Source of the DNA: Rhodoferax sp.
Lineage (GTDB): Bacteria; Pseudomonadota; Gammaproteobacteria; Burkholderiales; Burkholderiaceae_C
Length of the DNA: 60,109 nucleotides
Assembly: GCF_028689305.1 (NCBI RefSeq)
Contig: NZ_JAQTWM010000012.1
Location: forward strand, 1-60,109
Direction of reading: 5' to 3'
Each line of letters opens with the position of its first letter. The stretch's first letter is position 1. The notes under the pieces are model-generated. The model had not been told where the DNA came from. It did not search any database and saw nothing but the letters and a program-made list of their open reading frames with translations. Both the position numbers and the translations under genes were made by a program. Shown here one piece after another: positions 6,238 to 60,109 of the stretch.

Positions 6238-6286
6238 GCTATTGTTTTAATAGCTGTTTGCGCATGTTTTATAAGGGCTAGAGGCC
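6238..6286 (+). repeat. 49-bp double-hairpin repeat, copy 1 (murA-hisG)
   Basis: Ten elements of this family occur in the window; the orientation given puts the GCTAT-ATAGC stem first. Here GCTAT (6238), N7, ATAGC (6250-6254), 20 nt, then GGGCTAGAGGCC (6275-6286). It ends 3 bp before the hisG ATG, and its GAGG is the only purine-rich stretch available as a hisG ribosome site. Confidence 0.85.
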
Positions 6287-6289
6287 AAA

Positions 6290-6925
6290 ATGATCACTAT
6301 TGCACTGTCCAAGGGACGTATCTTTGAAGAAACCCTGCCGCTGCTCAAAGCCGCAGGCATCGAGGTGCTGGAAGACCCCGAAAAATCCCGCAAACTCATT
6401 TTGACCACCAACCAGCCCGACGTGCGGGTGCTGGTGGTGCGCGCCACCGACGTGCCCACCTACGTGCAATACGGCGGGGCCGACATGGGCATCACCGGCA
6501 AGGACACGCTGCTGGAGCACGGCAGCGATGGCCTGTACCAGCCGCTGGATTTGCAGATTGCCAAATGCCGCATCAGCGTGGCGGTGCGCTCGGACTTTGA
6601 CTACCAAAGCGCCGTCAAAAAAGGTTCGCGCCTGACGGTGGCCACCAAATACGTGGCGATTTCACGCGAGTTTTTCGCCAGCAAAGGCGTGCACGTGGAC
6701 CTGATCAAGCTCTACGGCAGCATGGAACTCGCCCCTCTGGTCGGCATGGCCGATGCCATCGTGGACCTGGTCTCCACCGGCAACACCCTCAAGGCCAACC
6801 ACCTGGTGGAGGTGGAACACATCATGGACATCAGCTCCCGCCTGGTGGTCAACCAGGCCGCGCTGAAGCTCAAACAGGCACCGATTCGCCGCATCATTGA
6901 CGCGTTTGAGTCGGCGGTGGGGTGA
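6290..6925 (+). CDS. hisG: ATP phosphoribosyltransferase, short form
   Basis: First enzyme of histidine synthesis (ATP + PRPP to phosphoribosyl-ATP). At 211 aa it is the short HisG form lacking the C-terminal regulatory domain, which in known cases needs HisZ for activity; no hisZ is visible in this window. Typical blocks are [15 protein letters not shown] at the N-terminus, [12 protein letters not shown], and [14 protein letters not shown] for PRPP binding. Leads the his operon. Confidence 0.97.
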
Positions 6926-7241
6926 TCAGCGTTCTTGCCCCAGGCGGCTGAGCGCATCCAGCGGGCTGCCTGTGCCGCCCGCGGCCACTTGGAGCACATG
7001 CAAGCCCACTGAACCGGATGAAGCAGCGTACCCAGTACACACAAGCCGGTTCATTAAAGTGTTGATGAAATCGGGACTTTGACCCTTTTGAATCGTCCCG
7101 GGCTTGACCCGTTTTCATGGGCACATGGGGCTTCCACATGGGGCTTCCTATGGAAGCTCAGGAATCGGCTGATTTTCTGCTCTAATGATTTTTCTTGATG
7201 CTTTCTTTCGAATTTGTTGGCCGAAAGGAGATTTACCAATC
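6926..7241 (+). other. Gene-poor gap after hisG with inverted and tandem repeats
   Basis: No confident gene in 316 bp. On the minus strand an ATG frame of 42 codons (7054 down to 6926) ends exactly tail-to-tail with hisG; I do not recognise it. It contains 8-bp inverted arms TGAACCGG (7010-7017) and CCGGTTCA (7046-7053). A perfect 13-bp tandem duplication CACATGGGGCTTC lies at 7122-7134 and 7135-7147, overlapping a 6-bp-stem hairpin GCTTCC-TAT-GGAAGC (7143-7157). This marks the left edge of the accessory block inserted in the his operon. Confidence 0.5.
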
Positions 7242-7823
7242 ATGCGCAAGCTGATCGTCTGCAACATCATTTCGCTTGACGGGTTTTTCTCCGGCCCAGG
7301 CGGGAACATCATGGCCATGCCGTTCGACAGCGGCTTCTCCGACTACAACGCGGAACGGCTCCGGGCGGCCGGCACGCTGCTACTCGGGCGTCAGTCGTTC
7401 GAGGCCTTCCGCTCCTACTGGCCCGCGGTTGCCGAGGACGCGAGTCAGCCGGCGGTGGAGCGCGAAATCTCGCGTCTCAACACCACTATCGAGAAGGTGG
7501 TGGTCTCGAACAGCCTGAAGCCAGAGGAGGTCGAGGGGTGGGGGCCGACCCGTGTCGTACCGCGTGCCAGTGCACACGCGGAGGTCGCGGCACTCAAGAA
7601 GGGGCTGGGGCGGGAAATCCTGGTATTTGGCAGTCACGTCCTCTGGAACGATCTTCTCGCCGCTGGCTTGGTCGATGAGCTGCATTTCATGATCGGCGCT
7701 GGTGTTGTTGGTGAGGGTGTCCGGGCCTTCGAGACCCGGTCGCCTGGCTCGCTTCGCCTGCTGGACACCCGCACCTTCGATGGCTCAAGCCTGCTTCTGG
7801 TTCGGTACGCCGTCGAGCGCTGA
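7242..7823 (+). CDS. Dihydrofolate reductase / RibD C-terminal domain protein
   Basis: 193-aa single-domain protein of the RibD_C (DHFR-like) superfamily, like YyaP/YwjB; probably an NADPH-dependent reductase of unknown substrate. Evidence: N-terminal KLIVCNIISLDGFFSGPGG, the GTLLLGRQSFEAF block, EILVFGSHVLWNDLLAAGLVDEL and a C-terminal strand. AAAGGAG precedes ATG 7242, favouring it over 7185. It is the first gene of the block between hisG and hisD and is followed by an attC-like site, consistent with a captured gene cassette. It is not a histidine enzyme. Confidence 0.8.
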   Translation: MRKLIVCNIISLDGFFSGPGGNIMAMPFDSGFSDYNAERLRAAGTLLLGRQSFEAFRSYWPAVAEDASQPAVEREISRLNTTIEKVVVSNSLKPEEVEGWGPTRVVPRASAHAEVAALKKGLGREILVFGSHVLWNDLLAAGLVDELHFMIGAGVVGEGVRAFETRSPGSLRLLDTRTFDGSSLLLVRYAVER

Positions 7824-7847
7824 TTGCCGGTGCACGACAAGGCCTAC

Positions 7848-7927
7848 GCCTGACATGGCGCTCAACCTCGCTCCCTACGGTCGCTGCGCGATGAAGCCGA
7901 GCAGCGTCGGTGACTTCAAACGTTGGC
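7848..7927 (+). other. Candidate integron attC-like recombination site
   Basis: An 80-bp segment directly after the reductase gene begins with GCCTGAC (cf. R'' box RYYYAAC) and CGCTCAAC, and ends with ACTTCAAACGTTGGC (cf. L' and R' GTTRRRY). Both boxes deviate from consensus by one or two bases. The next gene starts 13 bp after the putative core site, a spacing usual for cassettes. No integrase gene is in the window. Confidence 0.4.
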
Positions 7928-7940
7928 TCCACCAGGCATC

Positions 7941-8765
7941 ATGAGACTACTTGCTCATCTCTTATTTTGCGCAGCATGTTATGGCAATGCGTATGCTGCA
8001 TGTGAACACAAGACGTTATCTGTGCGAGGCATTGATCGTACGGGAATGGTTTGCGCACCGGCTTCCACGACTGCGCCTGCGCCAACGGTGCTTGCCTTCC
8101 ATGGGCGTGGAAGCAGTGCCAAGGAAATGGCAATGGGCACGCGCCTGCACATCGAGTGGCCGGAAGCATTGGTGGTGTATCTCGATGGCCTTCCTGGCAA
8201 CCCTGCTCCATACGACCGGGAAGGTCTGCATCCAGGGTGGCAGATCAACCCCGGCGACATGAACGACCGCGATGTCGCATTGACCGATGCGACGCTGGAT
8301 GCGTTGGCCCAGCATTACAAAATTGACCAGCGAAGGGTGTTTGCAGTCGGGCATTCAAACGGGGCACGTTTTGTCGGAATTTTATGGGCGCTGCGCGGGC
8401 ATCGTTTTGCCGCGCTAGCATTTTCTGCTGCCCAGGCCGACACACTGATCGACGTGGCTGAGCCACGTTCCGTTTTTATGGGGATGGGTATCCGGGACGA
8501 TATCGTTCCCTTTGAATGGCAACGCCAATCCATCAAGTACGCTGCTGCTCGGTTTGGCATCATTTCGGTTGAAGCCAAACAAGATGAAGTCAGTCTTGCA
8601 AGAAACAGCGACGGTGTTGAATTAGTGACTTTCATCCATAGCGGCAACCACGCTTGGCCTGCCAGACAGACACAAATGATCGTCAGCTTTTTCCGTCGGC
8701 AAAGCCAACAGCCCAACGTTGCAGTCAGCAGGGACGCGCCGCAAGCCGTGCGCCCGTTACCTTGA
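7941..8765 (+). CDS. Secreted PHB-depolymerase/feruloyl-esterase-like hydrolase
   Basis: 274-aa alpha/beta hydrolase of the LpqC/PHB depolymerase-like esterase group. A Sec signal peptide ends near AYA (about residue 19). HGRGSSAKEM supplies the oxyanion loop, GHSNGAR the nucleophile elbow (Ser in G-H-S-N-G), RDDIVPFEW a likely catalytic Asp, and HSGNHAWP the catalytic His. Expected to be periplasmic or exported; the substrate is unknown. Base composition looks lower in GC than the neighbouring his genes, fitting acquisition. Confidence 0.8.
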   Translation: MRLLAHLLFCAACYGNAYAACEHKTLSVRGIDRTGMVCAPASTTAPAPTVLAFHGRGSSAKEMAMGTRLHIEWPEALVVYLDGLPGNPAPYDREGLHPGWQINPGDMNDRDVALTDATLDALAQHYKIDQRRVFAVGHSNGARFVGILWALRGHRFAALAFSAAQADTLIDVAEPRSVFMGMGIRDDIVPFEWQRQSIKYAAARFGIISVEAKQDEVSLARNSDGVELVTFIHSGNHAWPARQTQMIVSFFRRQSQQPNVAVSRDAPQAVRPLP

Positions 8766-8781
8766 ACATTGGACATACACG

Positions 8782-9285
8782 ATGCGAGCGCTGTCCGTTG
8801 AAGACCAAATTTCTTGCCTCAGATCTACCATGAGGTTTGCGCCTCACATGCACAAGTGGTTTCTGGCTGGGGCTGCAACAGGCGTCATTGCAGCGGTTGT
8901 CTTCTGGCACCCTGTGCCATTGATGATGGCCGCTTTCCTGGGTGTCGTTGGATTCTCTGAGCAACGTGCCGGTCCCAACATTGTGTCAGCGATCGTGGCC
9001 TACGATTCTGGCAAGGCGACCGACGGGGAGGTTTCCGTTGCAGTCACATCCTGGGACACAGACAACACGTACCATGCCACTGTGTGTGAAGTAGGCCATC
9101 CTGATTGGACGTACGAGTTCATTCCACAGGGGTGGCAACCCGCTAGCCGTTGCTATCCGGCAAGGATATGGCGAACGGAGCCCGAAGGTCGACCTGTTTT
9201 GGCGGTTGTCGAAGAGGGAATCCTTGTCCCCCGTTATCCCCCCAAACTGGCCAACAGCCGGGATGGCCAGACCAATCATGCCTAA
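8782..9285 (+). CDS. Hypothetical membrane-anchored protein
   Basis: Unrecognised protein, 167 aa from ATG 8782; ATG 8830 (151 aa) is an equally possible start and neither has a clear ribosome site. One or two hydrophobic segments (WFLAGAATGVIAAVVFW and PLMMAAFLGVVGF) are followed by a soluble domain with two Cys and several Trp that probably faces the periplasm. Its TAA stop lies inside a GCCTAAC box, a typical arrangement for the last codon of an integron cassette gene. Confidence 0.5.
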   Translation: MRALSVEDQISCLRSTMRFAPHMHKWFLAGAATGVIAAVVFWHPVPLMMAAFLGVVGFSEQRAGPNIVSAIVAYDSGKATDGEVSVAVTSWDTDNTYHATVCEVGHPDWTYEFIPQGWQPASRCYPARIWRTEPEGRPVLAVVEEGILVPRYPPKLANSRDGQTNHA

Positions 9286-9335
9286 CCATCGCTTCGAGGA
9301 GACCGCCGGGCGGCCACTCAAGCCCATCAGGAGAT
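9280..9335 (+). other. Truncated attC-like site
   Basis: GCCTAAC (9280-9286) matches the attC R'' box exactly and contains the stop codon of the upstream gene. CATCGCTTCGAGGAGACCG resembles the left half of known attC sites, with a short GC hairpin (ACCGCC/GGCGG) and ACTCAAG. The expected right GTTRRRY box is degenerate (CATCAGG), so the site looks decayed. Confidence 0.4.
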
Positions 9336-9343
9336 TTTCTGAA

Positions 9344-10090
9344 ATGGACATCCCGCGGATCTTCAACATCACCGAAAGCGCCCACCGCATCCATAACCCG
9401 ATCACCCCCGAAAAGCTCGCCACGCTCGGTGCGGCGCTGCGGCTGGCATCGGGAGCCCGGGTGCTCGACCTCGGCAGCGGTTCGGGGGAGATGCTGTGCA
9501 CCTGGGCACGCGACCACGGCGTCATCGGCACCGGCATCGACATGAGCCAGCTGTTCACCGAGCAAGCGAAACGCCGTGCGGTAGAACTCGGCGTTGCCGA
9601 TCAAGTCAAGTTCATCCATGGCGATGCGTCCGGTTACGTCTCCGACGAAAAGGCCGATGTGGCAGCCTGTGTCGGTGCCACCTGGATCGGCGGGGGAGTC
9701 GCCGGCACCATCGGGCTGCTGGCGCGGAGCGTGTACACCGCAGGGATCATCCTCATCGGCGAACCCTTCTGGCGGCAGTTGCCGCCGACGGAGGAGGTTG
9801 CCAAGGGGTGTCTTGCCAATGCCATCTCCGACTTTCTCATGCTCCCGGAACTGCTCGCGTCTTTCGGCCACCTTGGCTACGATGTTGTTGAAATGGTGCT
9901 GGCTGACCAGGACGGCTGGGACAGATACGAGGCGGCCAAATGGCTCACCATGCGCCGATGGCTGGAAGCCAATCCAGACGACGAGTTGGCGAAAGAGGTT
10001 CGCGCCCAACTGACCTCCGAACCCGAGCGCTACGCCGCTTACACGCGTGACTACCTGGGCTGGGGGGTGTTCGCGCTGATAAAACGATAG
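9344..10090 (+). CDS. Class I SAM-dependent methyltransferase
   Basis: 248-aa methyltransferase with motif I VLDLGSGSGEMLC (SAM binding), an acidic GTGIDMSQLF and DVAACVGATWIGGG (post-motif II). The target is unknown. ATG 9344, 10 bp after CAGGAG, starts the conserved-looking MDIPRIFNITESAHRIHNP; the longer frame from 9206 overlaps the upstream gene and attC remnant. Third enzyme of the hisG-hisD accessory block. Confidence 0.8.
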   Translation: MDIPRIFNITESAHRIHNPITPEKLATLGAALRLASGARVLDLGSGSGEMLCTWARDHGVIGTGIDMSQLFTEQAKRRAVELGVADQVKFIHGDASGYVSDEKADVAACVGATWIGGGVAGTIGLLARSVYTAGIILIGEPFWRQLPPTEEVAKGCLANAISDFLMLPELLASFGHLGYDVVEMVLADQDGWDRYEAAKWLTMRRWLEANPDDELAKEVRAQLTSEPERYAAYTRDYLGWGVFALIKR

Positions 10091-10136
10091 CCGTCATGTC
10101 TGGGGTGCGGAGGAGTTTGTCTTGTTGGCATATTTA

Positions 10137-10185
10137 GCCTTTTTGCCCGCACAAAATAAGCATAGTAAGCTATATTTAACATAGC
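10137..10185 (-). repeat. 49-bp double-hairpin repeat, copy 2
   Basis: On the plus strand: GCCTTTTTGCCC (10137-10148), 20 nt, GCTAT (10169-10173), N7, ATAGC (10181-10185). It lies upstream of the small membrane-protein gene at 10241 and in the same orientation as copy 3 downstream of it. Confidence 0.75.
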
Positions 10186-10240
10186 AAAATAGAGCTTTGC
10201 TGGCGAAGTTGTTTCGGCAAAAATTTCACTGGGAGCGATC

Positions 10241-10570
10241 ATGATACTTTCGAAACTCAACAAGCCAATTCTCGCGAAAGCGCTTCTCGCCATCGTGCTT
10301 TTGTCATTGCTGGTGGGCGTTGCCGGCTCCCAACTGGTGCCCAAGATGCCGTTGCATCTGGTCTTGTTTTATAGCGTGGTCGGCGTCACGGCGTTGTTCG
10401 TGGTCCTGGTTCTTGCTGTGGTTGTCACGCTCACCTTTGCACAATTCATTCTGCGCATGGGGGGCACCGACCCTCAGTGGTTCTGGTTTTCCGCCGAGCC
10501 TCCAGGCTTGGTTCACTTGCGCGAGCAGGCCTGCGAAGCCCAATCCCAGGCCACGCGCAGCGATGAATGA
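10241..10570 (+). CDS. Small two-helix membrane protein, unknown
   Basis: 109 aa, not recognised. Two hydrophobic helices (about residues 11-30 and 39-68) are followed by a Trp-rich GGTDPQWFWFSAEPPG stretch and a polar tail. GGGAG lies 6 bp before ATG 10241. It stands alone between methyltransferase and hisD and is bracketed by two same-orientation copies of the 49-bp repeat (copies 2 and 3). Confidence 0.5.
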   Translation: MILSKLNKPILAKALLAIVLLSLLVGVAGSQLVPKMPLHLVLFYSVVGVTALFVVLVLAVVVTLTFAQFILRMGGTDPQWFWFSAEPPGLVHLREQACEAQSQATRSDE

Positions 10571-10572
10571 GA

Positions 10573-10610
10573 TCTGACGAGTCAGACCAGACTTCCTGGT
10601 CCGGCACCGG
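10573..10610 (+). terminator. Possible hairpin pair after membrane-protein gene
   Basis: Two adjacent inverted repeats, TCTGAC-GA-GTCAGA (10573-10586) and ACCAG-ACTTC-CTGGT, directly follow the gene. No T-run follows, so an intrinsic terminator is uncertain. Confidence 0.3.
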
Positions 10611-10652
10611 CACCGCACAACCCGCTGGATGCCACCTGTTATGTGTGTTTTA

Positions 10653-10701
10653 TGCCTATAGCCCGCGTAAAATAAGCCTATATAGCTATATATAGGATAG
10701 C
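10653..10701 (-). repeat. 49-bp double-hairpin repeat, copy 3 (upstream of hisD)
   Basis: TGCCTATAGCCC (10653-10664), 20 nt, GCTAT (10685-10689), N7, ATAGC (10697-10701). It also contains the 8-bp stem CCTATATA-GCTA-TATATAGG. Lies 89 bp before hisD. Confidence 0.8.
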
Positions 10702-10790
10702 TGTCTGTCTCGTCGATGGCATGGATTGCCCCCGCGCACGCTCATGCTGCCACTGCCCGCTAAACTTGAGCCAACCTCAAACCGATCACC

Positions 10791-12116
10791 ATGAATTCCA
10801 TCGCTACCCCCGCCCGTTTATCCACCGCCAGCAGCACTTTTGAGGCTGAATTCAAAGCCCGTCTGCATTGGTCAGCGGACACCGATGCCGGCATTGAGCA
10901 ACGCGTGGCCGACATTCTGGCGGACGTGCAACAGCGCGGTGATGTCGCTGTGCTGGACTACACCGCCCGTTTTGACGGCCTGCAGGCCAGCGCCGTGGCC
11001 GAGCTGGAGCTGACTCAGGCCGAACTCAAAGCCGCGTTTGATGCCTTGCCCGACGTGCAGCGCAGCGCCCTGGAGTCCGCCGCCCGCCGGGTGCGCAGCT
11101 ACCACGAAGCGCAAAAGAAGGCCAGTGGCGAGAGCTGGAGCTACCGCGATGCAGACGGCACGCTGTTGGGCCAGAAGGTCACGCCGCTGGACCGCGTCGG
11201 CATTTACGTGCCCGGCGGCAAGGCGGCGTACCCCTCCAGCGTGTTGATGAACGCCATCCCGGCCCATGTGGCCGGTGTGGGTGAGATCATCATGGTGGTG
11301 CCCACCCCCAAGGGTGAAAAAAACGCGCTGGTGCTGGCCGCCGCCTATGTGGCTGGCGTGACCCGGGCCTTCACCATCGGCGGTGCGCAAGCTGTGGCGG
11401 CGCTGGCTTACGGCACCGCCACGGTGCCCAAGGTGGACAAGATCACCGGCCCGGGCAACGCCTATGTGGCCAGCGCCAAAAAGCGTGTGTTCGGCGTGGT
11501 CGGCATCGACATGATCGCCGGGCCGAGCGAGATTCTGGTGCTGGCCGATGGCAGCACGCCGCCGGACTGGGTGGCGATGGACCTGTTCAGCCAGGCCGAG
11601 CACGACGAGCTGGCGCAGAGCATTTTGCTGTGCCCGGATGCCGCGTACATCGACCAGGTGCAGGCATCCATCAACCGCCTGCTGCCGGAGATGCCCCGGC
11701 GCGACATCATCGCCAAGTCGCTCACCGACCGTGGTGCGCTGATTTTGACCCGCAGCATGGAAGAGGCTTGTGACATCAGCAACCTGATCGCGCCGGAACA
11801 CCTGGAAGTCTCCAGCCGTGAGTCACACCTGTGGGAGCCCCTGCTCAGGCACGCCGGGGCGATCTTTCTGGGGGCATTCACCAGTGAGAGCCTGGGCGAC
11901 TACTGCGCCGGCCCCAACCATGTGCTGCCCACCAGCGGCACGGCGCGTTTCAGTTCCCCGCTGGGTGTGTACGACTTCCAGAAGCGCAGCAGCCTGATCG
12001 AGGTCAGCCAGACTGGTGCCCAGACGCTGGGCCAGATTGCCTCGGTGCTGGCGCATGGTGAGGGCCTGCAAGCCCACGCCCGCGCGGCCGAGATGCGTTT
12101 GAAGCCGAAGAACTGA
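10791..12116 (+). CDS. hisD: Histidinol dehydrogenase
   Basis: Last two steps of histidine synthesis: histidinol to histidine with two NAD+, zinc dependent. 441 aa. Zinc-binding Gln/His in [11 protein letters not shown] (about residues 265-275), catalytic Glu-His in LIAPEHLEV (about 334), and the late zinc ligand region of [14 protein letters not shown]. Separated from hisG by the accessory block and from hisC by the hox genes. Confidence 0.98.
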
Positions 12117-12216
12117 GCCTGACGGCAGAGCATGGTTTGACGCGTTGCTGGCTCTGGCCTTCGTGATGGGGTAAGCTGCTCCACTGGTACCATTTCACAG
12201 GCCACCTGTCCAAGCC

Positions 12217-15328: not shown

Positions 15329-15338
15329 GGTTGCCGTC

Positions 15339-16829: not shown

Positions 16830-16838
16830 CCCCCTGGC

Positions 16839-17297: not shown

Positions 17298-17368
17298 AGT
17301 CAGGCTTTACACTGGATGCCCATGTTGCTGCGCGCTGTTGTTTCCCCTTTGTTGCTGAGTCCCTTGCC

Positions 17369-19129: not shown

Positions 19130-19178
19130 GGCTTTTAGTCCGCGCATCCATTGCCTAGATAGCTATGAATTTAATAGT
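19130..19178 (-). repeat. 49-bp double-hairpin repeat, copy 4 (hisB-hisH)
   Basis: GGCTTTTAGTCC (19130-19141), 20 nt, GCTAT (19162-19166), N7, ATAGT (19174-19178). The hisH ATG (19165-19167) lies within this stem, so the element spans the hisH translation start. Confidence 0.8.
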
Positions 19179-21554: not shown

Positions 21555-21603
21555 GAGTGCTAGCCCACGTATTCATTGGGTTTTAAGCTATCAAAAAAAG
21601 AGT
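21555..21603 (-). repeat. 49-bp double-hairpin repeat, copy 5 (hisF-hisI)
   Basis: GAGTGCTAGCCC (21555-21566), 20 nt, GCTAT (21587-21591), N7, AGAGT (21599-21603). The outer arm of the stem is degenerate, but the spacing matches the other copies. Confidence 0.65.
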
Positions 21604-26516: not shown

Positions 26517-27275
26517 ATGATGCACCGTGATGAACTTCTGGCAGTTTTTGATGGCTTGTTGCAGCCTGAGCGTTTTCGCGACTACGGCCCCAATGGCCTT
26601 CAGGTCGAAGGCACAACATTTGTGCGCAAGATCGTTTCTGGGGTCACCGCCAGTCGGGCACTGATCGAGGCGGCCATCACCGCTGGCGCGGACACCATTT
26701 TTGTCCATCATGGTCTGTTCTGGCGCGGGCAGTCCGGCTGCGTGACGGGCTGGATGAAACAACGCCTGGCATTGTTGCTGGCCCATGACATCAATCTGCT
26801 GGCTTATCACTTGCCGCTGGACGCCCACCCGGAGTTGGGCAACAACGCCCAGCTTGGCCTGAAACTCGGGCTGGTAGGTCAGTGCCGTTTTGGTGAGCAG
26901 GACCTGGGTTGGCTCGGTGAACGTGCTGACGGCCAGTCCTTTGCCTCGGTACACGACCTGGCAGATCACCTTGGTCATGTATTAAACCGGGCTGTAGCCC
27001 ACGTTCATACGGGTGACGGTGCTATTAAAAAGATAGCTTGGTGCAGCGGGGGTGGGCAGAGCTATTTTGAGGCGGCCATCGCTGCCGGTGCCGATGCCTT
27101 TATCACTGGCGAAATGTCGGAGCCGCAGGCCCACCTGGCGCGTGAGTGTGGTGTGGCGTATCTGGCCTGTGGCCATCATGCCAGCGAGCGTTACGGCGCG
27201 CCGGCGGTGGCCGCCCATGTGGCCAGCCAATGCGGGCTGGCGCATGAATTCATCGAGATCGACAACCCGGCCTGA
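26517..27275 (+). CDS. NIF3-family (YbgI/DUF34) metal-binding protein
   Basis: 252 aa. Family blocks DYGPNGLQVEG at the N-terminus, TIFVHHGLFWRG (metal-binding His pair), AYHLPLDAHPELGNNAQL, and late ITGEMSEPQAHLARE and GHHASERYG. GTP cyclohydrolase I type 2 is a common but doubtful annotation for this family. Codons 158-174 or so are supplied by repeat copy 6, with the frame kept open. Confidence 0.92.
   Translation: MMHRDELLAVFDGLLQPERFRDYGPNGLQVEGTTFVRKIVSGVTASRALIEAAITAGADTIFVHHGLFWRGQSGCVTGWMKQRLALLLAHDINLLAYHLPLDAHPELGNNAQLGLKLGLVGQCRFGEQDLGWLGERADGQSFASVHDLADHLGHVLNRAVAHVHTGDGAIKKIAWCSGGGQSYFEAAIAAGADAFITGEMSEPQAHLARECGVAYLACGHHASERYGAPAVAAHVASQCGLAHEFIEIDNPA
26989..27037 (-). repeat. 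49-bp double-hairpin repeat, copy 6 (inside NIF3 gene)
   Basis: GGGCTGTAGCCC (26989-27000), 20 nt, GCTAT (27021-27025), N7, ATAGC (27033-27037). Both stems are perfect. The whole element is translated in the NIF3 frame. Confidence 0.85.
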
Positions 27276-28362: not shown

Positions 28363-28411
28363 GCCGTTCAGCCCAGATAATTGTTGGTTATGTAGCTATA
28401 TTTTTAGTAGC
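28363..28411 (-). repeat. 49-bp double-hairpin repeat, copy 7 (pdxA-mscL)
   Basis: GCCGTTCAGCCC (28363-28374), 20 nt, GCTAT (28395-28399), N7, GTAGC (28407-28411). It lies between convergent genes 8 bp after the pdxA stop, and its stem overlaps the mscL TAG stop codon (28413-28411 on the minus strand). Confidence 0.8.
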
Positions 28412-33114: not shown

Positions 33115-33190
33115 GCCGATTTAGCTCAGTTGGTAGAGCAACCGCCTTGTAAGCGGTAGGTCGTCAGTTCGAATCCGACAATCGGCACCA
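33115..33190 (+). tRNA. tRNA-Thr (anticodon TGT)
   Basis: 76-nt cloverleaf including encoded CCA. Acceptor GCCGATT pairs with AATCGGC, D-arm GCTC/GAGC, anticodon stem ACCGC/GCGGT with loop CTTGTAA (TGT at 33148-33150), T-arm with GTTCGAATC. A TAAAAT box lies 10-15 bp upstream. Confidence 0.97.
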
Positions 33191-39617: not shown

Positions 39618-40087
39618 CGGCGTTGACGACCCCTCTGGTGGCGGATGCTCACCAGGCGCGGCTGGGTGGACCGGATCGCCCCGTGGTGGATGTGGCGGTG
39701 GGGGTGCTGATCCAGCCAAATGGCGAGTTTTTGCTGACCTCACGGCCGCAGGGCAAGGTCTATGCCGGGTATTGGGAATTCCCCGGTGGCAAGTTGGAGG
39801 CTGGCGAAACGGTGGAGCAGGCGCTGGTACGTGAACTGCACGAAGAACTGGGTATTCACATCGGCCAGATCGTCCGTTGGCGCGAAGAAATGGTGGACTA
39901 CCCGCACGCACTGGTACGCCTGCATTTTTGCAAGGTGCTGGACTGGACCGGGGCATTGCAGATGCGCGAGGCGCAAAGTTTTGCCTGGCAACACTTGCCG
40001 GTCACCGTGGCGCCGATCCTGCCGGGCACGGTGCCGGTGCTGCAATGGTTGGCCGCGGATGCCGGTTTTTCGGATGCTATCTATTAG
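39614..40087 (+). CDS. Nudix hydrolase, MutT-like
   Basis: 157 aa. Complete Nudix box GGKLEAGETVEQALVRELHEELGI-type (G-x5-E-x7-R-E-x2-E-E-x-G). VGVLIQPNGEFLLTSRPQGK and FPGGKLE match MutT 8-oxo-dGTP pyrophosphatases. The last residues and TAG stop lie inside repeat copy 8, so the native C-terminus may have been altered. Confidence 0.9.
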   Translation: MTALTTPLVADAHQARLGGPDRPVVDVAVGVLIQPNGEFLLTSRPQGKVYAGYWEFPGGKLEAGETVEQALVRELHEELGIHIGQIVRWREEMVDYPHALVRLHFCKVLDWTGALQMREAQSFAWQHLPVTVAPILPGTVPVLQWLAADAGFSDAIY

Positions 40088-40124
40088 ATAGCTGTTTGTG
40101 CTTGTTTCATGCGGGCTAAGGGCC
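40076..40124 (+). repeat. 49-bp double-hairpin repeat, copy 8 (end of Nudix gene)
   Basis: GCTAT (40076-40080), N7, ATAGC (40088-40092), 20 nt, GGGCTAAGGGCC (40113-40124). The seven-base loop contains the TAG stop (40085-40087) of the Nudix gene. Confidence 0.85.
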
Positions 40125-50626: not shown

Positions 50627-50674
50627 GTCGCCCGAACGAGGGTCTGCCGTGTTGGCCTGAATGGCTGGCAGTTT

Positions 50675-51298: not shown

Positions 51299-51321
51299 AG
51301 ACCGACCGCCGGCGCGCCTGG

Positions 51322-52311
51322 TTATTGGCTGCTGATGGCCAAGGACTTGATGATGCGGCCCAGCAGGACCGCGTCAGACTGGATGCGGTTGGACAATCCT
51401 TCCGGTGAAGAGCCCACCACCTGCCAGCCTTGCTGGAAGAGTTTTTGCCGCACCTCGGGTGAGCGTGCAATCTCACTGATCAGTGTGGAAAGCCTGGCCA
51501 CGACTGGGGCCGGCATGGATTTGGGCGCCGCCACCGCGTTCCAGATTTCCAGATTGAAGTTGGCCACCCCCACCTCAGCCATACTTGGCAGATCGGGGGC
51601 CAGGGGGCTACGCCCGCTGCTGGTCACACCGATGGCCCGCAGTCTGCCGCCCTTGACCTGGGCGGTGGCCAGTGCTGGCGGCAACATCGACAGATGCAAT
51701 TGCCCACCGATCATCGCGTTGGCCACCTGGGCGTAGCCGGGGTAGGGTACATGCACCGGCTTGATCCCGGTTTGGGCCTTGAACAGCTCCATGCCGATGT
51801 GACCCACCGTGCCAACGCCGGGTGAACCGTAACTCCAACCGTCACCGGCTTGCCGGGCTGCCGCCAGAAAAGCCGGTCCATCCGCGCCTGGCGCATTTTG
51901 CGGGGCCATCAACACCAGCGGAGACACGCCAACCAGGCTCACGGGTTTGAAATCCTTGAGCGGGTCATAGGGCACTTTCGGGTTGAGCAGCTTGGCAATG
52001 GTCAGGTTGCCGTTGATCATCAGACCCAGCGTGTGGTTGTCGGTGGCTTTGGCGACCAGATCAGCGGCAATATTGCCGCCGGCTCCCACGCGGTTTTCCA
52101 CAATCACCGGCTGACCGAGTGCCTTGGACAACGGTTCGGCCAGGGTGCGCGCTGTCAGGTCGGGTGACGAACCACCGGGAAAACCGACAATGATGCGCAC
52201 CGCTTTGTTGGGCCATGGCGCATTTTGTGTGTTATTTTGGGCGCTAGCCCAGGTAAACATTGATGATATAGCTATGAAAAATAGAGCATTTCGACGATGA
52301 CTCGAACGCAT
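51322..52311 (-). CDS. Bug/TctC-type tripartite tricarboxylate transporter binding protein
   Basis: 329 aa periplasmic binding protein. WPNKAVRIIVGFPGGSSPDLTAR at the mature N-terminus, then VENRVGAGGNIAADLVAKA and PVHVPYPGYAQVANAMIGGQ are Bug-family hallmarks. The ligand cannot be predicted; no TctAB genes are adjacent. The signal peptide (cleavage near WASA-Q) is encoded by repeat copy 9. ATG 52311 is chosen over an extended frame from 52413 that overlaps the rpoH terminator. Confidence 0.92.
   Translation of the reverse strand: MRSSHRRNALFFIAISSMFTWASAQNNTQNAPWPNKAVRIIVGFPGGSSPDLTARTLAEPLSKALGQPVIVENRVGAGGNIAADLVAKATDNHTLGLMINGNLTIAKLLNPKVPYDPLKDFKPVSLVGVSPLVLMAPQNAPGADGPAFLAAARQAGDGWSYGSPGVGTVGHIGMELFKAQTGIKPVHVPYPGYAQVANAMIGGQLHLSMLPPALATAQVKGGRLRAIGVTSSGRSPLAPDLPSMAEVGVANFNLEIWNAVAAPKSMPAPVVARLSTLISEIARSPEVRQKLFQQGWQVVGSSPEGLSNRIQSDAVLLGRIIKSLAISSQ
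52239..52287 (-). repeat. 49-bp double-hairpin repeat, copy 9 (signal peptide of Bug protein)
   Basis: GGGCGCTAGCCC (52239-52250), 20 nt, GCTAT (52271-52275), N7, AGAGC (52283-52287). Translated on the minus strand it covers residues about 9-24 of the Bug protein. Confidence 0.85.
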
Positions 52312-52330
52312 GAACCGGTCTCCTGTGTGC

Positions 52331-52368
52331 AAAAAAATGCCCCCAGAGCAAGGTGCTGTGCTGGGGGC
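52331..52368 (-). terminator. Intrinsic terminator after rpoH
   Basis: Minus strand: GCCCCCAG (52368-52361) pairs with CTGGGGGC (52346-52339), followed by ATTTTTTT. Perfect 8-bp stem about 30 bp after the rpoH stop. Confidence 0.85.
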
Positions 52369-52399
52369 TGGGTCTGGCGGGAATCTGATTGAGGCCGGA

Positions 52400-53341: not shown

Positions 53342-53372
53342 GCCAGTACTCCTATTGCTCAATACTTCTATA

Positions 53373-53399
53373 TTAGCACTCCCTAAGAGAGAGTGCTAA
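53373..53399 (-). promoter_or_regulatory. CIRCE element (HrcA operator) upstream of rpoH
   Basis: TTAGCACTC-N9-GAGTGCTAA, an exact match to the CIRCE consensus. On the minus strand its left half can serve as a -35 (TTAGCA) and TAATAT at its right end as a -10 with 18-bp spacing, so HrcA binding would block the promoter. Confidence 0.93.
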
Positions 53400-53449
53400 T
53401 TGAAAAGTTCAATCACTTGATTGAAGACGGCTTTCAAAAAGTAACAGCG

Positions 53450-53486
53450 CCCGAGCCTGGTGTCCGCCTTGGGTACCAGGCTCGGG
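53450..53486 (-). terminator. Terminator hairpin after maeB
   Basis: CCCGAGCCTGGT (53450-53461) and ACCAGGCTCGGG (53475-53486) form a perfect 12-bp stem. On the minus strand it lies 26 bp after the maeB stop and is followed by a T-rich stretch (TTACTTTTT). Confidence 0.8.
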
Positions 53487-53512
53487 TAAGCACCCTCTGG
53501 GTGATTTCGGGG

Positions 53513-55816
53513 TCAGCGCAGGGCGTTCACATCGGCCACGGCCAGTGCCGTCATGTTCACCACGCGGCGCACGGTACTGGAGGGGTTCAACACGTGGGCG
53601 GTGGCGGCGGCGCCCAGCAGGATCGGCCCCACTGTCACGCCGTTGCCACCGGTCATCTTGAGCACGTTGAACAGGATGTTGGCGGCATCCAGGTTCGGGC
53701 AGATCAGGATGTTGGCGCGGTCGCTGAGGGTGTTGCCGATCAGCGCATGGCGGCGAATCTCTTCGGACAGCGCTGCGTCGCCTTGCAATTCGCCGTCGCA
53801 CTCCACGTCCGGGCAAGCGGCCTTGAACAGTTCAGTGGCGCGGCGCATCTTGCGGGCCGAGGCCCGTTGGGAGGACCCATAGTTGGAGTGTGACAGAAAC
53901 GCCACCTTGGCCGGCAGACCAAAGCGCCGCACCTCATCTGCTGCCATGCGGGCGATGGCACACAACTGTTCGGCACTGGGGTCTTCGTTGACATAGGTGT
54001 CGGCGACAAAAATCGAGTGGTGTTCCAGCATCAGGGCATTGAGCGTGGCAAAGGTATCGACCCCGGCCTTGCGGCCAATCACGTCGCGCACATGGTCCAG
54101 ATGCACGTCAAAACGGCCATGCAGGCCACACAGCATGGCGTCGGCATCACCGAGCTTGATCATCAGCGCGGCAATGATGGTGGTGCTGCGCCGCACGGCC
54201 GCCTTGGCGGCCTCGGGGCTGACACCCTGGCGCCCCAGCAGCTGGTGGTAGGTTTCCCAATACTGGCGGAAACGCGGGTCCTCCTCGGGGTTGACGCAGT
54301 CCACATCACGCCCGAGTTGCAGGCGCAGGCCGGCTTTGGCAATACGCGCTTCGATCACTGCCGGGCGGCCGATCAGGATCGGACGGGCCAACCCTCCTTC
54401 GATGACGATCTGGGCGGCGCGCAGCACCCGTTCATCCTCACCTTCGGCGTAGGCCACGCGCTTGGCATTGGCGGGGGCGGTACGGGCGGCGTTGAACACC
54501 GGCTCCATCAACAGGCCGGTGGAATAGATGAAGCGCGACAGCTCGCGGCGGTAGGCTTCCATGTCCTTGATCGGTCGTGTGGCCACACCGGACTTTTCGG
54601 CCGCTGCCGCCACGGCCGGGGCAATGCGCAAAATCAGGCGCGAATCAAACGGTTTGGGGATGATGAAGTCCACGCCAAAGGCCAGCTCCTGGCCGGCGTA
54701 GGCGCTGGCCACCTCCTCGCTGATGTCGGCCTTGGCCAGATCGGCAATCTCGCGGACACAGGCCAGCTTCATTTCCTCGGTGATCTTGGTGGCGCCGCAG
54801 TCCAGCGCGCCGCGGAAGATGTAGGGGAAACACAGCACGTTGTTGACCTGGTTCGGGTAGTCCGAACGGCCGGTGGCAATGATGCAGTCCGGGCGCACGG
54901 CCTTGGCCAGCTCCGGGCGGATTTCCGGCTCGGGGTTGGCCAGCGCCAGAATGATGGGCTTGGGGGCCATGGTCTTGACCATGTCCGCTGTCAGCACCCC
55001 GGCGGCGGAGCAGCCCAGGAACACATCGGCGCCATTGACCGCATCGGCCAGCGTGCGCATCTCGGTGGCCTGGGCAAACCGGGCCTTGGACTCGTCATAA
55101 CCACCGGGCCGGCCCTGGTAGATCACCCCCTTGGAGTCACAGACTGTCACATTCTTGACCTGCACGCCCAGGCCGACCATCACGGTCAGGCAGGCAATGG
55201 CCGCGGCACCGGCACCGGACACCGCCACCCGGACGTCGGCGATGTTTTTGTCCACCAGTTCCAGGCCGTTGAGCAGCGCCGCGCTGGAGATGATGGCCGT
55301 GCCGTGCTGGTCGTCATGAAACACCGGGATGCCCATGCGTTCGCTGAGCTTTTTCTCGATATAGAAACACTCTGGCGCCTTGATGTCTTCCAGGTTGATG
55401 CCGCCCAGCGTGGGCTCCAGTGCCGCGATGATCTCGATCAGCTTGTCGGGGTCGCGTTCGGCCAGTTCGATGTCAAACACATCGACGCCGGCAAATTTCT
55501 TGAACAGGCAGCCCTTGCCCTCCATCACCGGCTTGCCCGCCAGGGGGCCGATGTCCCCCAGGCCCAGCACTGCCGTGCCATTGGTGATCACCGCCACCAG
55601 GTTGCCGCGGCTGGTGTAGTCGTGTGCCAGCGCGGGATTGGCCTGGATTTCCAGGCAAGGGTAGGCGACGCCGGGCGAATAGGCCAACGACAGGTCGCGC
55701 TGGTTCATCAGCGGCTTGGTGGCGTTGACCGAAATCTTGCCACGGGTGGGGAAGCGGTGGTAGTCGGCAGCGGCGTCGCGCAGGGCTTGCTCGGCAGGGG
55801 AAAGCTTGTCAGTCAT
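53513..55816 (-). CDS. maeB: NADP-dependent malic enzyme with phosphotransacetylase-like domain
   Basis: 767 aa. Malic enzyme domain (about 1-420): [43 protein letters not shown], and [10 protein letters not shown] for NADP. The C-terminal 330 residues resemble phosphate acetyltransferase ([25 protein letters not shown]), regulatory in MaeB. Converts malate to pyruvate + CO2. ATG 55816 with GGAG upstream is preferred over 55831. Confidence 0.96.
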
Positions 55817-55889
55817 GGTGTCTCCAGTCAAATGCTGAATCAGGACTGTACACCTGCCACCCCGGCATTGGCCTGACAGCCCGGAGACA

Positions 55890-57365
55890 TCAACGGACGC
55901 CAGTGTTGCGCGCAGTGGACGACTGGCCTGGTGCGCCGTTGAAAAACAGATTCAGTGTGATGGCACTCAGGCTGGCCAGCAAAATGCCGGAATCAATCAG
56001 CGGGTGGACACTGTGCGGCAGCCATTGTTTGAAGTTCGGCGCGATCAGGGGCACCATGCCCAGGCCCAACGAAATTGCCACAATCATGGCGTTGAAGCGG
56101 TTGGTCTTGAAGTCCACCCCGGCCAGGATCCGGATCCCGGTGGCCGCCACCATGCCAAACATCACCAGCCCGGCACCGCCAAGCACCACGGTGGGCAGGG
56201 ATTCCACCAGGGCCGCCATCTTGGGCATCAAGCCCATGAGCATCAGCAACAGGCCACCGGCCACACAGACGAAGCGGCTCTTGACCCCCGTCACCGCCAC
56301 CAGCCCCACGTTTTGCGAAAAACTGGTGTGGGGGAAAGTGTTGAGCAAGCCTCCCAACAGGGTGCCCAGGCCATCGGTGCGCAAACCCCGCGCCAGCGCA
56401 ACCTGATCCACCGCACGGTCCGTCATTTCGCCCAGCGCCAGGAACATGCCGGTGGACTCGATCATGACCACCACCATCACCAGGGTCATGGTGGCGATCA
56501 GCACCGGGTCAAATTGCGGCAGGCCAAAGTGAAATGGCAGCACCAGCTCGAACCAGGGGGCCTGACTGACCTTGCTGAAGTTCATCCAGCCCAGCAGGGT
56601 GGCCACGATGCCGCCAATCACCAGCCCCAGCAGCACGGAGATATTGGCGACAAAACTGCGGCCATAACGCGCCAGCAGCAGGATCGAGACCAGCACCAGC
56701 GCCGAAATGGCGATGCCCGCCGGGCTGGCGTATTGGGGGTTGGGCAGGCTGGGGGCCAGCGTCAGCCCGGGCGGCACCGCCGGCAGGGTGGCTCCCGCAG
56801 CCGCTGTCGCCCGGCTGATCTCGGCCAGCCACTGGGCATGTTCGGGATTGACGATGAGCGCCCCGTTCGGGCCGCTCGGGTTGCCAAATATCCAGTGGAT
56901 GCCGATACGCATCAGGCTGATCCCGATCACCAGAATGATGCTGCCGGTGACCAGGGGCGGGAAAAAACGCAGCAGGCGGCTGAACACTGGCGCGATCAGC
57001 ATCGAGAGCAAGCCGGCCCCGATGGTGGCGCCAAAAATCAGTTGGGCGCCGACGTCGCCTGGGTTGCCCTGGGCAATCGCGACCATCGGTGGCACCGAGG
57101 CAAAGGTGACCCCCATCATCACCGGCAACCGGATGCCGAACCAGCGGGTGGCGCCAAACGACTGGATCAGCGTGACCAGACCGCAGCAAAACAGGTCGGC
57201 CGAGATCAGGTAGGCCACCTCCTGCGGGCTGAGTTTGAGCGCGCGCCCGACGATCAGCGGCACGGCAATGGCACCGGCATACATCACCAGCACATGCTGC
57301 AGCCCCAGGGCGGCCAGCCTGGCCGTGGGCAGCACTTCGTCCACCGGGTGTACTGTGCTTGTCAT
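55890..57365 (-). CDS. NCS2-family nucleobase (xanthine/uracil) permease
   Basis: 491 aa, about 12-14 helices. QHVLVMYAGAIAVPLIVG at helix 1, the Gln/Glu-containing VMIESTGMFLALGE and the NCS2 motif NTFPHTSFSQNVGLVAVTGV. Purine (xanthine/uric acid) specificity is inferred from the neighbouring ureide genes. Start ATG 57365; the longer frame overlaps the M20 gene. Confidence 0.93.
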   Translation of the reverse strand: MTSTVHPVDEVLPTARLAALGLQHVLVMYAGAIAVPLIVGRALKLSPQEVAYLISADLFCCGLVTLIQSFGATRWFGIRLPVMMGVTFASVPPMVAIAQGNPGDVGAQLIFGATIGAGLLSMLIAPVFSRLLRFFPPLVTGSIILVIGISLMRIGIHWIFGNPSGPNGALIVNPEHAQWLAEISRATAAAGATLPAVPPGLTLAPSLPNPQYASPAGIAISALVLVSILLLARYGRSFVANISVLLGLVIGGIVATLLGWMNFSKVSQAPWFELVLPFHFGLPQFDPVLIATMTLVMVVVMIESTGMFLALGEMTDRAVDQVALARGLRTDGLGTLLGGLLNTFPHTSFSQNVGLVAVTGVKSRFVCVAGGLLLMLMGLMPKMAALVESLPTVVLGGAGLVMFGMVAATGIRILAGVDFKTNRFNAMIVAISLGLGMVPLIAPNFKQWLPHSVHPLIDSGILLASLSAITLNLFFNGAPGQSSTARNTGVR

Positions 57366-57375
57366 GGCGCGTTGG

Positions 57376-58605
57376 TCACTGCAGCAGGTCGGCCAGAGTG
57401 CGGGCGATGACCTGGGTGGCACGGCGCAGGTCGGCCAGATCAAGGTGTTCGTCGGCGCGTTTGGCGTTGGACTCACGCACCGTGCGCGGTCCGGCGCCGT
57501 AAATCACGCCGGGGATGCCCTGTTGCGCAAACAGCCGCACATCGGTGTACAGCGGTGTGCCTAAAGCGGGAATGGGCTCGCCAAACACGATTTCGCCATG
57601 CTTTTGGATGGCCTGCACCAGCGGCTGGTTGCCGGGCAGCGGTTTCATGGACTGGGCCAAGAGGATGCGTTTGACATCAACGCTGATGCCAGGACTTTCG
57701 GCGGCGGTCCTGGCGATCAGCTCACGCAGCCCGGCTTCCACTTCGGTCGCGTTCTCCTCGGGAATCATGCGCCGGTCCAGCTTGAAACTGACCTTGCCGG
57801 GGATCACGTTGGTGTTGGTGCCGCCCTGGATCAGGCCGACATTCAGGTAGGGGTGGGTGATGCCTTCGACCTGGGAGCGAATGCTGGCGCGGTACACCTC
57901 GTTTTGCGCGTACAACACGGTGAGGATTTTGACGGCAGCCTGCAAAGCATCGACGCCGGACTCGGGAATCGCCGCGTGGGCCATCTGGCCGTGCACCGTC
58001 ACCTCCAGTTGCAGGCAGCCGTTGTGCGCGGTGATGACCTGGTAGCTGAAGCCTGCCGCAATCATCAGGTCGGGGCGGGTCAGATGGTGCTGGAGCAGCC
58101 AGCCGGGGCCCACCTCGCCGCCAAACTCCTCGTCGTAGGTGAACAGCAATTCAAGTTGGCCGCGTTGTGGCGGGCACACCGCCTCCAGCGCCCGCAGGGC
58201 AAAGGTGTAGGTGGCAAAGTCGCATTTGCTCACGGCGCTGGCGCGGCCATAAATCTTGCCGTCTTCGATCTCGCCACCGTAGGGGTCGTGCGTCCAGCCC
58301 TCGCCAGGCGGCACCACGTCGCCATGGGCGTTGAGCGCAATGGTTTTGCCGCCTGCGCCATAGGAACGGCGCACGATCAGGTTGGTGATGCTTTGCAGTC
58401 CGGCGGCTTGCACCTCGGCTTGCGGCACCGGGTGTTTTTCCGCTTCAAGGCCCATGGCCGCCAGCAGCGCTGCCGTGCGCTCGGCATGCGGCGCGTTGTT
58501 GCCCGGCGGGGTGTCGGTGGGAACGCGGATGAGTTCTTGCAGAAAGCGCACCTGTTCGTCAAAGTGCGCTTCAATCCATTGGTCCAGGGCGGTGTAGGTG
58601 CTCAT
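57376..58605 (-). CDS. M20-family peptidase/deacetylase (ArgE/DapE-like)
   Basis: 409 aa zinc-dependent hydrolase. Metal ligands in LNAHGDVVPPGEGW, GRASAVSKCDFATY and FTYDEEFGGEVG; dimerisation domain with HGQMAHAAIPESG; late TPLYTDVRLF. Substrate unknown; the position between the permease and allantoate amidohydrolase suggests a ureide or N-carbamoyl/N-acyl intermediate. ATG overlaps the upstream stop (ATGA). Confidence 0.88.
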   Translation of the reverse strand: MSTYTALDQWIEAHFDEQVRFLQELIRVPTDTPPGNNAPHAERTAALLAAMGLEAEKHPVPQAEVQAAGLQSITNLIVRRSYGAGGKTIALNAHGDVVPPGEGWTHDPYGGEIEDGKIYGRASAVSKCDFATYTFALRALEAVCPPQRGQLELLFTYDEEFGGEVGPGWLLQHHLTRPDLMIAAGFSYQVITAHNGCLQLEVTVHGQMAHAAIPESGVDALQAAVKILTVLYAQNEVYRASIRSQVEGITHPYLNVGLIQGGTNTNVIPGKVSFKLDRRMIPEENATEVEAGLRELIARTAAESPGISVDVKRILLAQSMKPLPGNQPLVQAIQKHGEIVFGEPIPALGTPLYTDVRLFAQQGIPGVIYGAGPRTVRESNAKRADEHLDLADLRRATQVIARTLADLLQ

Positions 58606-60109
58606 GAGGTGGTGCTTCGGTGATGATCTGCCTGGCCGTCATCCGCAGCCAGTTGGGTTAACAGGTTATGAAAGGCTTCCACCGCCAGCTGCATGTCGTC
58701 GCTGGTGGTGGATTCGAGTGGGTTGTGGCTGATGCCGGCATTCTGGCCGCGCACAAACAGCATGGCTTGGGGCATAACCTCGTGCAGTTTCATGGCATCG
58801 TGCCCAGCCCCGCTGGGCAGGTGGTGCAGCGGCAAGCCCAAGGCCGCCACGGCGGTTTCCCAGCGCTGCTGCCACGCGGGCGCGCTGGGGGCGGCGCTGG
58901 CGCGCAGCGTCTGCTGCAACTCCAACGTCAGGCCGCGCCGCTGGCAGATGTGCGCCAATTGTTGCAGCACATCACCCTCCAATTGCTTGCGCTGCAGGTC
59001 GTTGGGTGCCCGCAAGTCCAGGCTGAAAGTGCAGCGGCCCGGCACCACGTTGACGCTGCCGCCGGGCACGTTGATCTGGCCCATGGTGGCCACTGAATCG
59101 CCGTCCTGCGCGGCGCGCTGCTCCAGGTACAAGGCCAACTCGGCGACCGCGCCCAGGGCATCGCGGCGCTGGTTCATCGGGGTGGTGCCGGCGTGGCTGG
59201 CCTGGCCGGTGACGCTGCCGGTGTAGCGCACGCTGGCGTTGATGGCCGTCACCACGCCCAGCGGCAGGTTCAGCGCATTGAGCACCGGGCCTTGTTCGAT
59301 GTGCACCTCGACAAAACCCAGGTACTGCGCCGGGTCGCGCTTCAGGCTGGCGATGCGTGCCAGCACCGCATCCAGAGGCTCTGCGCCGCACAACCCGGCT
59401 TGCTGCATGGCGGCGTGCATCGTCACGCCATCGGCATCCTGCTGCGCAAGCCACTCGGGCTTGAAGTCGCCCACCAGCGCGCCGGAGCCGAGAAAGGTGG
59501 CGGCAAAGCGCTGGCCTTCTTCTTCGGCAAAGGCCACCACTTCGATGGCAAACGGCAGGCGGCGGCCAGTGCGGTGTAACGCACGCACGCAGGCCATCGG
59601 CGCCAAAATGCCCAGGCGGCCATCGTATTTGCCGCCGTTGCGCACCGTGTCGTAGTGGCTGCCGGTCAGCAGGGCGGCAGTATTTGCAGGCTTTTCAGGG
59701 GGGTAGCCCGCGTGTTGATTGCCTATGTAGCTATTATTTTCATAGCGTCCAACCACATTGCCTACCGCGTCGATGGTCACCGAGTCAAAACCGCAGGCCC
59801 GCATCTGGGTGAACAACCAGGCGGCGCAGGCGCGGTGGGCGTCACTCAGGTAAGTCACGGTGAGCTGGCCGTGCTCGGCATAACCGGGTTCGGAAAACAC
59901 ACTGAGCTGTTCGTGCCAGTCCCACACCTGGTGGCCCAGCGTGGGGGACTGGCCAAACTTGTCGTTCAGGCGGAGCTCGGCAATGCGGTGGATGTTGCGC
60001 AGGCATTCCTGCAACTCAAAATCGGGGTGGTTTTGCAGGCGGCGGGTAAAGGTGGCGATGATCTCGGCGCGGCTCAAGCCGGTGCCACGCGGGCCGCGCA
60101 CCGCCAGGA
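58602..60109 (-). CDS. UraD (C-terminal part) fused to allantoate amidohydrolase (5' end outside window)
   Basis: Open to the window edge. The first residues (LAVRGPRGTGLSRAEI to RLNDKFG) match the C-terminus of OHCU decarboxylase UraD, which completes uric acid breakdown to allantoin. The rest is an M20 amidohydrolase: GSHYDTVRNGGKYDGRLG, FAEEEGQRFAATFLGS, EVHIEQGPVLN and GQASHAGTTPMNQRRD, fitting allantoate amidohydrolase (AllC/HyuC). GTG 60101 is internal. Repeat copy 10 adds about 16 codons between VVGRY and EKPAN. Confidence 0.88.
   Translation of the reverse strand, partial: LAVRGPRGTGLSRAEIIATFTRRLQNHPDFELQECLRNIHRIAELRLNDKFGQSPTLGHQVWDWHEQLSVFSEPGYAEHGQLTVTYLSDAHRACAAWLFTQMRACGFDSVTIDAVGNVVGRYENNSYIGNQHAGYPPEKPANTAALLTGSHYDTVRNGGKYDGRLGILAPMACVRALHRTGRRLPFAIEVVAFAEEEGQRFAATFLGSGALVGDFKPEWLAQQDADGVTMHAAMQQAGLCGAEPLDAVLARIASLKRDPAQYLGFVEVHIEQGPVLNALNLPLGVVTAINASVRYTGSVTGQASHAGTTPMNQRRDALGAVAELALYLEQRAAQDGDSVATMGQINVPGGSVNVVPGRCTFSLDLRAPNDLQRKQLEGDVLQQLAHICQRRGLTLELQQTLRASAAPSAPAWQQRWETAVAALGLPLHHLPSGAGHDAMKLHEVMPQAMLFVRGQNAGISHNPLESTTSDDMQLAVEAFHNLLTQLAADDGQADHHRSTTS
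59698..59746 (-). repeat. 49-bp double-hairpin repeat, copy 10 (inside allantoate amidohydrolase gene)
   Basis: GGGGGGTAGCCC (59698-59709), 20 nt, GCTAT (59730-59734), N7, ATAGC (59742-59746). The stem is perfect; the 12-mer keeps only GGGCTA. The frame stays open through the element. Confidence 0.8.

Follow-up and report, generated by a model that had tools for sequence, protein, structure and literature searches.

RAYT genes have been described as single-copy genes passed down vertically over millions of years (PMC8049555), TIRYT flanks are reported to carry a GGGGWSAS motif (Di Nocera 2013, PMC3733652), and REP-like sequence was not found near genes of TnpA_Y1 subclass 2.1, equated with RAYT group 1 (PMC6006769). 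An interspersed repeat of the Comamonadaceae, BRE, is described in the part of its source used here as about 90 bp long (75–91 bp in Bordetella, where it is 69% G+C), often in tandem, and present in four copies in R. ferrireducens (Hot 2011, PMC3110155). The window considered here, i.e., the whole stretch of 60,109 nucleotides from contig NZ_JAQTWM010000012.1 of a Rhodoferax sp. (assembly GCF_028689305.1), contains ten copies of a 49-bp element, GCTAT-N7-ATAGC followed by a 20-nt spacer and a conserved end. On the strength of sequence comparison we regard it, with a probability of roughly 0.55, as a REP-like, non-autonomous and mostly intergenic repeat, derived from and once spread by a RAYT (HUH/Y1) gene. 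Within the literature searched, the element is a previously undescribed REP-like variant.

With the classical REP/RAYT systems it shares high copy number, a mostly extragenic location, a bias to gene ends, a correspondence between repeat type and genome, and, in the source genome and most element-rich Rhodoferax, an element-like copy beside an HUH/Y1 gene. It differs from the GTAG-tagged REPs of REPtrons in having no conserved GTAG or CGTC tag, in being 49 bp long with an AT-rich dyad, in the absence of an inverted close pair among the ten copies, and in occupying sites shared between species. Because the test for the GTAG tag fails, the element is not filed as a classical REP, although it works like one. 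As in the TIRYT/TIRtron system, so far as the passages of PMC3733652 describe it, the 3' side of the RAYT in the source genome bears GGGGAC- and GGGGTCAG-type motifs resembling GGGGWSAS; the dispersed unit here, however, is the segment from the stop codon to the motif, not the GGGG motif itself. The sequence GGGGTCAGATTCCAATTA was rejected as the dispersed unit, having no exact copy in the source genome. It is a small separate repeat with 0–19 exact copies per genus genome, sometimes in inverted pairs with a distance of 43 nt between starts (G102:C14:40732 and 40775, for example). Subclass 2.1, as characterized in the passages of PMC6006769, resembles the present RAYT in length (about 234 aa), C-terminal extension, and GGGG-type motif, and differs in that here an element-like copy adjoins the gene; this is a likeness by description. 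BRE, also an interspersed repeat of the Comamonadaceae, was rejected as the same family on size, G+C content, and arrangement as given in the passages of PMC3110155, the present element being 49 bp long with 28–57% G+C; the two are set apart by description and not by sequence.

The sequence-only reading knew of no named family of this form, and the literature searched describes none (subscription papers and supplements lie outside it, and an earlier description there is possible). The element is likewise absent from the passages of PMC2817692, PMC6006769, PMC3733652, PMC2267715, PMC8049555, PMC3110155, and PMC8266576 that were available, and a search of PMC12306157 for six taxon names gave no match.

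Distribution, consensus and structure

In the source genome (G000; 3.83 Mb in 187 contigs, 86.5% complete) GCTAT-N7-ATAGC occurs at 171 sites, against one for the reversed pattern. R1, a covariance model of the ten window copies, matched all 150 candidates scored there, the weakest with E = 8e-6, giving at least 150 copies; the genome-wide excess anticipated by the sequence-only reading is thus evident. R1 also matches in 73 of 89 genomes of the genus and in 62 of 200 sampled genomes of the bacterial family, representing 39 of 115 genera, so the element family reaches beyond one genome. At most 150 candidates per genome were scored in G000 and for the counts of G121 and G122, whose loci are those with the highest scores, 64 in the 89 genus genomes, and 28 in the family sample. 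The bare pattern occurs 0–181 times per genome in 60 genus genomes versus 0–10 times in 40 genomes of the same order but of other families, for which the reversed-pattern control gives 0–18. A search of a plasmid collection returned four records, all matching flanking genes only.

The consensus of 74 copies (matches to the model in the window and in 38 further stretches) reads GCTAT, seven bases that are mostly A or T, ATAGCTA, a variable segment in which a GC is conserved, A-Y-S-Y, and GGGCTAGAGGCC. The alignment is gap-free in 67 of the 74, and the fixed spacing seen in the window holds. The loop centre is A/T in all 74 copies at columns 11–12 and in 72 at column 13; G+C content ranges from 28 to 57% across 54-nt element matches, and mean column identity among copies is 64–70%.

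The double hairpin originally proposed was not confirmed. Arm 1 is paired in 88% of cells over the 74 copies of the source genome; the second hairpin, when given the register that relatives show, is paired in 44% and, by eye and unscored, is near-perfect in some relatives. Pairing over the whole structure amounts to 57.7% of cells versus 22–43% when slid by 1–3 columns, and is no higher than in shuffles of the 74 copies on any of five measures. At one arm-1 pair C-G replaces U-A in four of 74 copies. RNAalifold, run on the ten copies, predicts hairpin 1 alone with zero compensatory pairs, and among the best 25 pairs the strongest mutual information joins neighbouring or near columns and no stem pair. 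Covariation thus supports neither an RNA structure nor the double hairpin; the former was rejected because RNAalifold, mutual information, and pair counts support only an essentially uncovarying hairpin 1.

The RAYT gene and its 3' flank

The source genome has a single PF01797 gene. Its RAYT protein, of about 234 aa with a C-terminal extension, shows HUH and Y motifs by eye; TnpA_REP 4er8 (E = 3e-4) is its sole match in the PDB at E ≤ 0.01, and the score of 76.6 bits for NCBIfam REP_Tyr_transpos lies just below the cut-off of 80. Directly 3' of the stop codon there is an element-like copy. The flank set comprised 190 RAYT loci, 18 of them without the motif, with 142 distinct flanks, 133 of which contain GTCCC. 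GCT[AC][TC] stands 10–13 nt ahead of GTCCC in 96 of these 133, against 0–2 in eight control windows, and the distance is 11 or 12 nt in 95 occurrences; TCTGACCC lies within 150 nt of the RAYT stop in 128 of the 142. In element-rich Rhodoferax the 30–40 nt between the stop and this anchor are mostly element-core-like. A RAYT/Y1 transposase, suggested as one candidate by the sequence-only reading, has support in the PF01797 gene, the element-like copy behind its stop, and the family-wide GCT[AC][TC] anchor; the further expectation that transposase copy number would track the elements failed, as shown below.

A RAYT-side score of at least 13 was obtained in 26 of 38 element-rich versus two of 20 element-poor Rhodoferax genomes (p = 2e-5, kinship ignored). 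In this first set the gene motif was found in 67 of 80 loci, nine loci were set aside (seven without the flank motif, two second copies), 62 were scored, G014, G057, and G005 were dropped, and 12 genomes missed by the motif were left out. With a looser gene finder the RAYT-side copy was present in 27 of 37 element-rich versus one of 22 element-poor genomes (p = 1e-7, kinship ignored); here 64 of 77 genomes were scored and 13 dropped, including the low-scoring but element-rich G059 and the element-poor G114 (14.2 in the first set), whose restoration gives 27/38 versus 2/23. Among the exceptions in element-rich genomes are G031 and G046, with a truncated RAYT-side copy. When the RAYT-side cores from six genomes were paired with the elements of their own genomes, the fit was better than in 718 of 720 pairings for six core positions selected post hoc, 714 of 720 at positions 36, 37, and 39, and 696 of 720 at 36 and 37.

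Sites in the window and in related species

The coordinates of the ten copies proved exact, with two copies on the + strand and eight on the − strand:

6238..6286, +: murA–hisG gap, ending 3 nt 5' of the predicted hisG ATG (6290)
10137..10185, −: 3' of a methyltransferase-like open reading frame; colinear flanks not found in the relatives compared
10653..10701, −: upstream of hisD; colinear flanks not found in the relatives compared
19130..19178, −: hisB–hisH, containing the likely hisH ATG (19165)
21555..21603, −: between hisA and a hisI-like gene
26989..27037, −: within the NIF3 (DUF34) coding sequence
28363..28411, −: filling the convergent pdxA–mscL gap
40076..40124, +: 3' end of a NUDIX gene, containing its stop codon (40085–40087)
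52239..52287, −: 5' side of a TctC-family gene, inside a long open reading frame ahead of the Pfam domain
59698..59746, −: inside open reading frame 58602–60101 (−) with an M20-peptidase domain, ahead of the domain; no colinear flanks in the relatives compared

The N7 loop and the 20-nt spacer are of invariant length in all ten copies, as had been claimed, and ATAGC is intact in all ten. The accompanying claim that all share GCTAT-N7-ATAGC applies strictly to six copies, in which both arms are perfect; the other four have one or two changes, confined to the 5' arm (19130 ACTAT, 21555 ACTCT, 28363 GCTAC, 52239 GCTCT). In a weight-matrix scan of the window the ten copies scored 44–59 bits and the next-best hit 11. 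No inverted close pair of the REPIN/BIME type occurs among the ten; eight blocks of 40–60 kb hold three element neighbours within 600 bp of each other, one of them inverted (G100). The sole match of an Rfam scan of the window at gathering scores is one tRNA gene, located at 33115–33187 (+).

The sites were compared with 40–60 kb blocks of seven relatives, the site-by-genome combinations outside those counted here lacking colinear flanks. Five of the relatives are element-rich (G054, G010, G101, G116, and G100), and in these 23 of 24 testable cases are filled with orientation kept (matrix score ≥ 19); the weakest is 28363 in G116, and the only unfilled case is 6238 in G101, with a gap of 9 nt. 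A short locus of G004 is filled at two of two sites, and G003 and G112 (0 and 12 model matches) at two of nine, the remaining scores being at most 0.5. The orthologous sites are filled as follows:

6238: G054, G010, G116, G100, and G112
21555: G054, G010, G101, G116, G100, and G004
26989: G054, G010, G101, G116, and G100
28363: G101, and weakly G116
40076: G054, G112, and probably G100, where the left flank alone aligned and the copy just beyond it was taken as orthologous
52239: G054

At the NIF3-gene site (26989–27037) G112 has a weak trace at most (score 0.5).

The hisB–hisH element was recognised, by eye and unscored, in 19 of 26 readable relatives. Five relatives without it (G112, G003, G102, G111, and G047) have nearly equal gaps of 105–107 nt, as if copies had eroded there, and a partial trace remains in G047; in G115 and the element-rich G019 the gap is shorter. 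At hisA–hisI, G102, G052, and G115 have a gap smaller by about 50 nt, and the gaps of other element-free relatives differ in length, some being longer. The element sites are thus old and stable across related species.

Core bases that follow the genome

Seven shared sites provided 32 copies for comparison. Bases 36 and 37 are alike in 65% of comparisons between different sites of one genome versus 41% of those between both different genomes and different sites (p = 0.0005, the floor, with labels permuted within sites), and the effect persists at p ≤ 0.002 when any one of six genomes is dropped; these two bases were unscored in the scan that found the copies, yet were chosen after seeing the data. 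In a scan of neighbouring pairs the genome effect is strongest at 35–38 and weaker at 21–22, 24–25, 32–34, and 38–40, and base 39 also goes with the genome at shared sites. The loop behaves in the opposite way, its identity in 68 copies being 58% between genomes at the same site versus 39% within a genome; the 3' end (44–49) also tracks the site (77% versus 63%). That the core at 36–37 tracks the genome rather than the site, even where the site is shared, means that some factor acts in trans. The genome-wise pull on the core is partial, because positions 34–38 jointly show both genome and site effects; copy 6238 in G000, for example, retains the AAG form of other genomes. ATAGC is 97% identical at shared sites, where the scan favours ATAGC and GGCTAGAGGCC, so that identity in these segments is not independent.

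Drift in G+C content was rejected as the cause of the core change, as G054 (60.9% G+C) has mostly AA and G101 (60.3%) mostly GG, and whole-element replacement was rejected because the loop remains site-specific. The diversity of the copies (mean column identity as above) and their partly palindromic form would suit an old, dead and decaying miniature inverted-repeat transposable element derived from an unrelated DDE transposon; the genome-wise change at 36–37, two bases without a role in locating the copies, misfits neutral decay, as does, weakly, the 97% identity of the scan-favoured ATAGC, and such an origin appears very improbable.

Origin and maintenance of the element

Under the reading that we prefer, the family would have arisen from the 3' end of the RAYT gene itself, spread long ago, and become nearly immobile. 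The RAYT would recognise the ATAGC-plus-core part as single-stranded DNA and, rarely and long ago, would have copied it to new sites. The specificity of the RAYT, or of a host protein now using the element, may then have drifted in each lineage and pulled the cores along, and where that pull was lost the copies may have eroded. Most likely it is the RAYT that acts in trans to hold the core fairly uniform within a genome, but the genomes without a RAYT are better explained by a host protein.

Several results weigh against an origin from, and spread by, the RAYT. The 74 copies have no conserved GTAG/GTGG or CGTC tag, the nearest being the ATAG columns (A in 67, G in 7), the second hairpin is not general, and no recent movement of the element was seen. 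PF01797 matches, one to eight per genome, occur in 79 of the 89 genus genomes, including 13 of the 16 without an R1 match; conversely, no such match was found in the element-rich G122, G058, and G051 (97%, 80%, and 70% complete). The usual RAYT is lacking in G122 and G121 (loci L274–L303), yet these genomes have 122 and 129 model matches; at the PF01797 locus of G121 only 50 residues align, with 32% identity. The presence of a RAYT as the sole driver of the elements was rejected on account of both the RAYT-bearing genomes without the family and the RAYT-less genomes rich in it. The RAYT tree provides seven independent contrasts, one of them on well-supported branches, with which a sign test cannot reach significance; these are too few to exclude kinship as the source of the RAYT-side association. 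In other genera an element-like core lies behind the RAYT in five of 19 element-rich versus none of six element-free loci (p = 0.29; 30 loci, five without a readable gene, with 13 further matches outside the set). Finally, the copy beside the RAYT could simply be another of the old copies in the genome.

The element could instead be the site of a host DNA-binding protein of the nucleoid, chromosome-organising, or global regulator type, which would bind the AT-rich dyad GCTAT-N7-ATAGC and a second half-site, GGGCTA; selection would keep the sites, the core would drift with the specificity of the protein, and the sites would erode where the protein was lost. The stable orthologous sites, the strict spacing with an A/T loop centre, the genome-wise core change at shared sites, and the persistence of elements in two genomes without the usual RAYT agree with this. 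A placement that favours gene ends and avoids divergent gaps is unlike that of promoter-regulator sites, the anchor occurs at fixed spacing also in the RAYT 3' end, and the hisA–hisI gap, which G102, G052, and G115 have in a form smaller by about 50 nt, looks as if a unit had been gained or lost (although gaps of other element-free relatives are longer); on balance we consider a host site doubtful, if well worth keeping in view. In a further, somewhat unlikely version a domesticated RAYT or a partner would rewrite the core segment before GGCTA in place, leaving resident copies unmoved. If true, this would be concerted evolution at fixed addresses, with loops about 24 nt away keeping their own history.

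The benefit of a RAYT to its host is a standing question, and the element family offers a way into it, being REP-like and traceable at individual addresses from one species to the next, retained in some lineages and lost in others, and having a core that changes by genome. Tracing by address together with a genome-wise core therefore makes selfish copying, a host binding site, and conversion in place directly testable against each other. The element may also supply the repeat partner for a RAYT type reported without one, and may allow a study of how such repeats persist so long.

Placement relative to genes

The position of 55 copies, from the window and 20 other source-genome stretches on long contigs (several picked for holding matches), was recorded against gene calls from a crude codon-score script: 36 are intergenic, five partly so, and 14 inside predicted genes, versus 10%, 4%, and 86% of random 49-mers. 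By gap, the 41 wholly or partly intergenic copies lie in 27 tandem, 13 convergent, and one divergent case, as compared with 139, 20, and 38 among all gaps of 45–400 bp (chi-square p = 1.5e-7). The copies thus favour gene 3' ends and shun divergent gaps.

The 13 copies in convergent gaps, set against the 20 such gaps counted, would suit an RNA-level 3'-end element, i.e., a terminator, a processing site, or an mRNA stabiliser. Copies lying within the his operon and within coding sequences, covariation that does not exceed that of shuffles, and the single tRNA returned by Rfam at gathering scores argue against such a role, which we hold to be improbable.

The in-gene copies include one in the NIF3 gene and two in purL. 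The latter are both in frame in the purL-like coding sequence of the source genome (L050:6385-10623, contig C23), where they correspond to residues of about 324–342 and 1135–1153.

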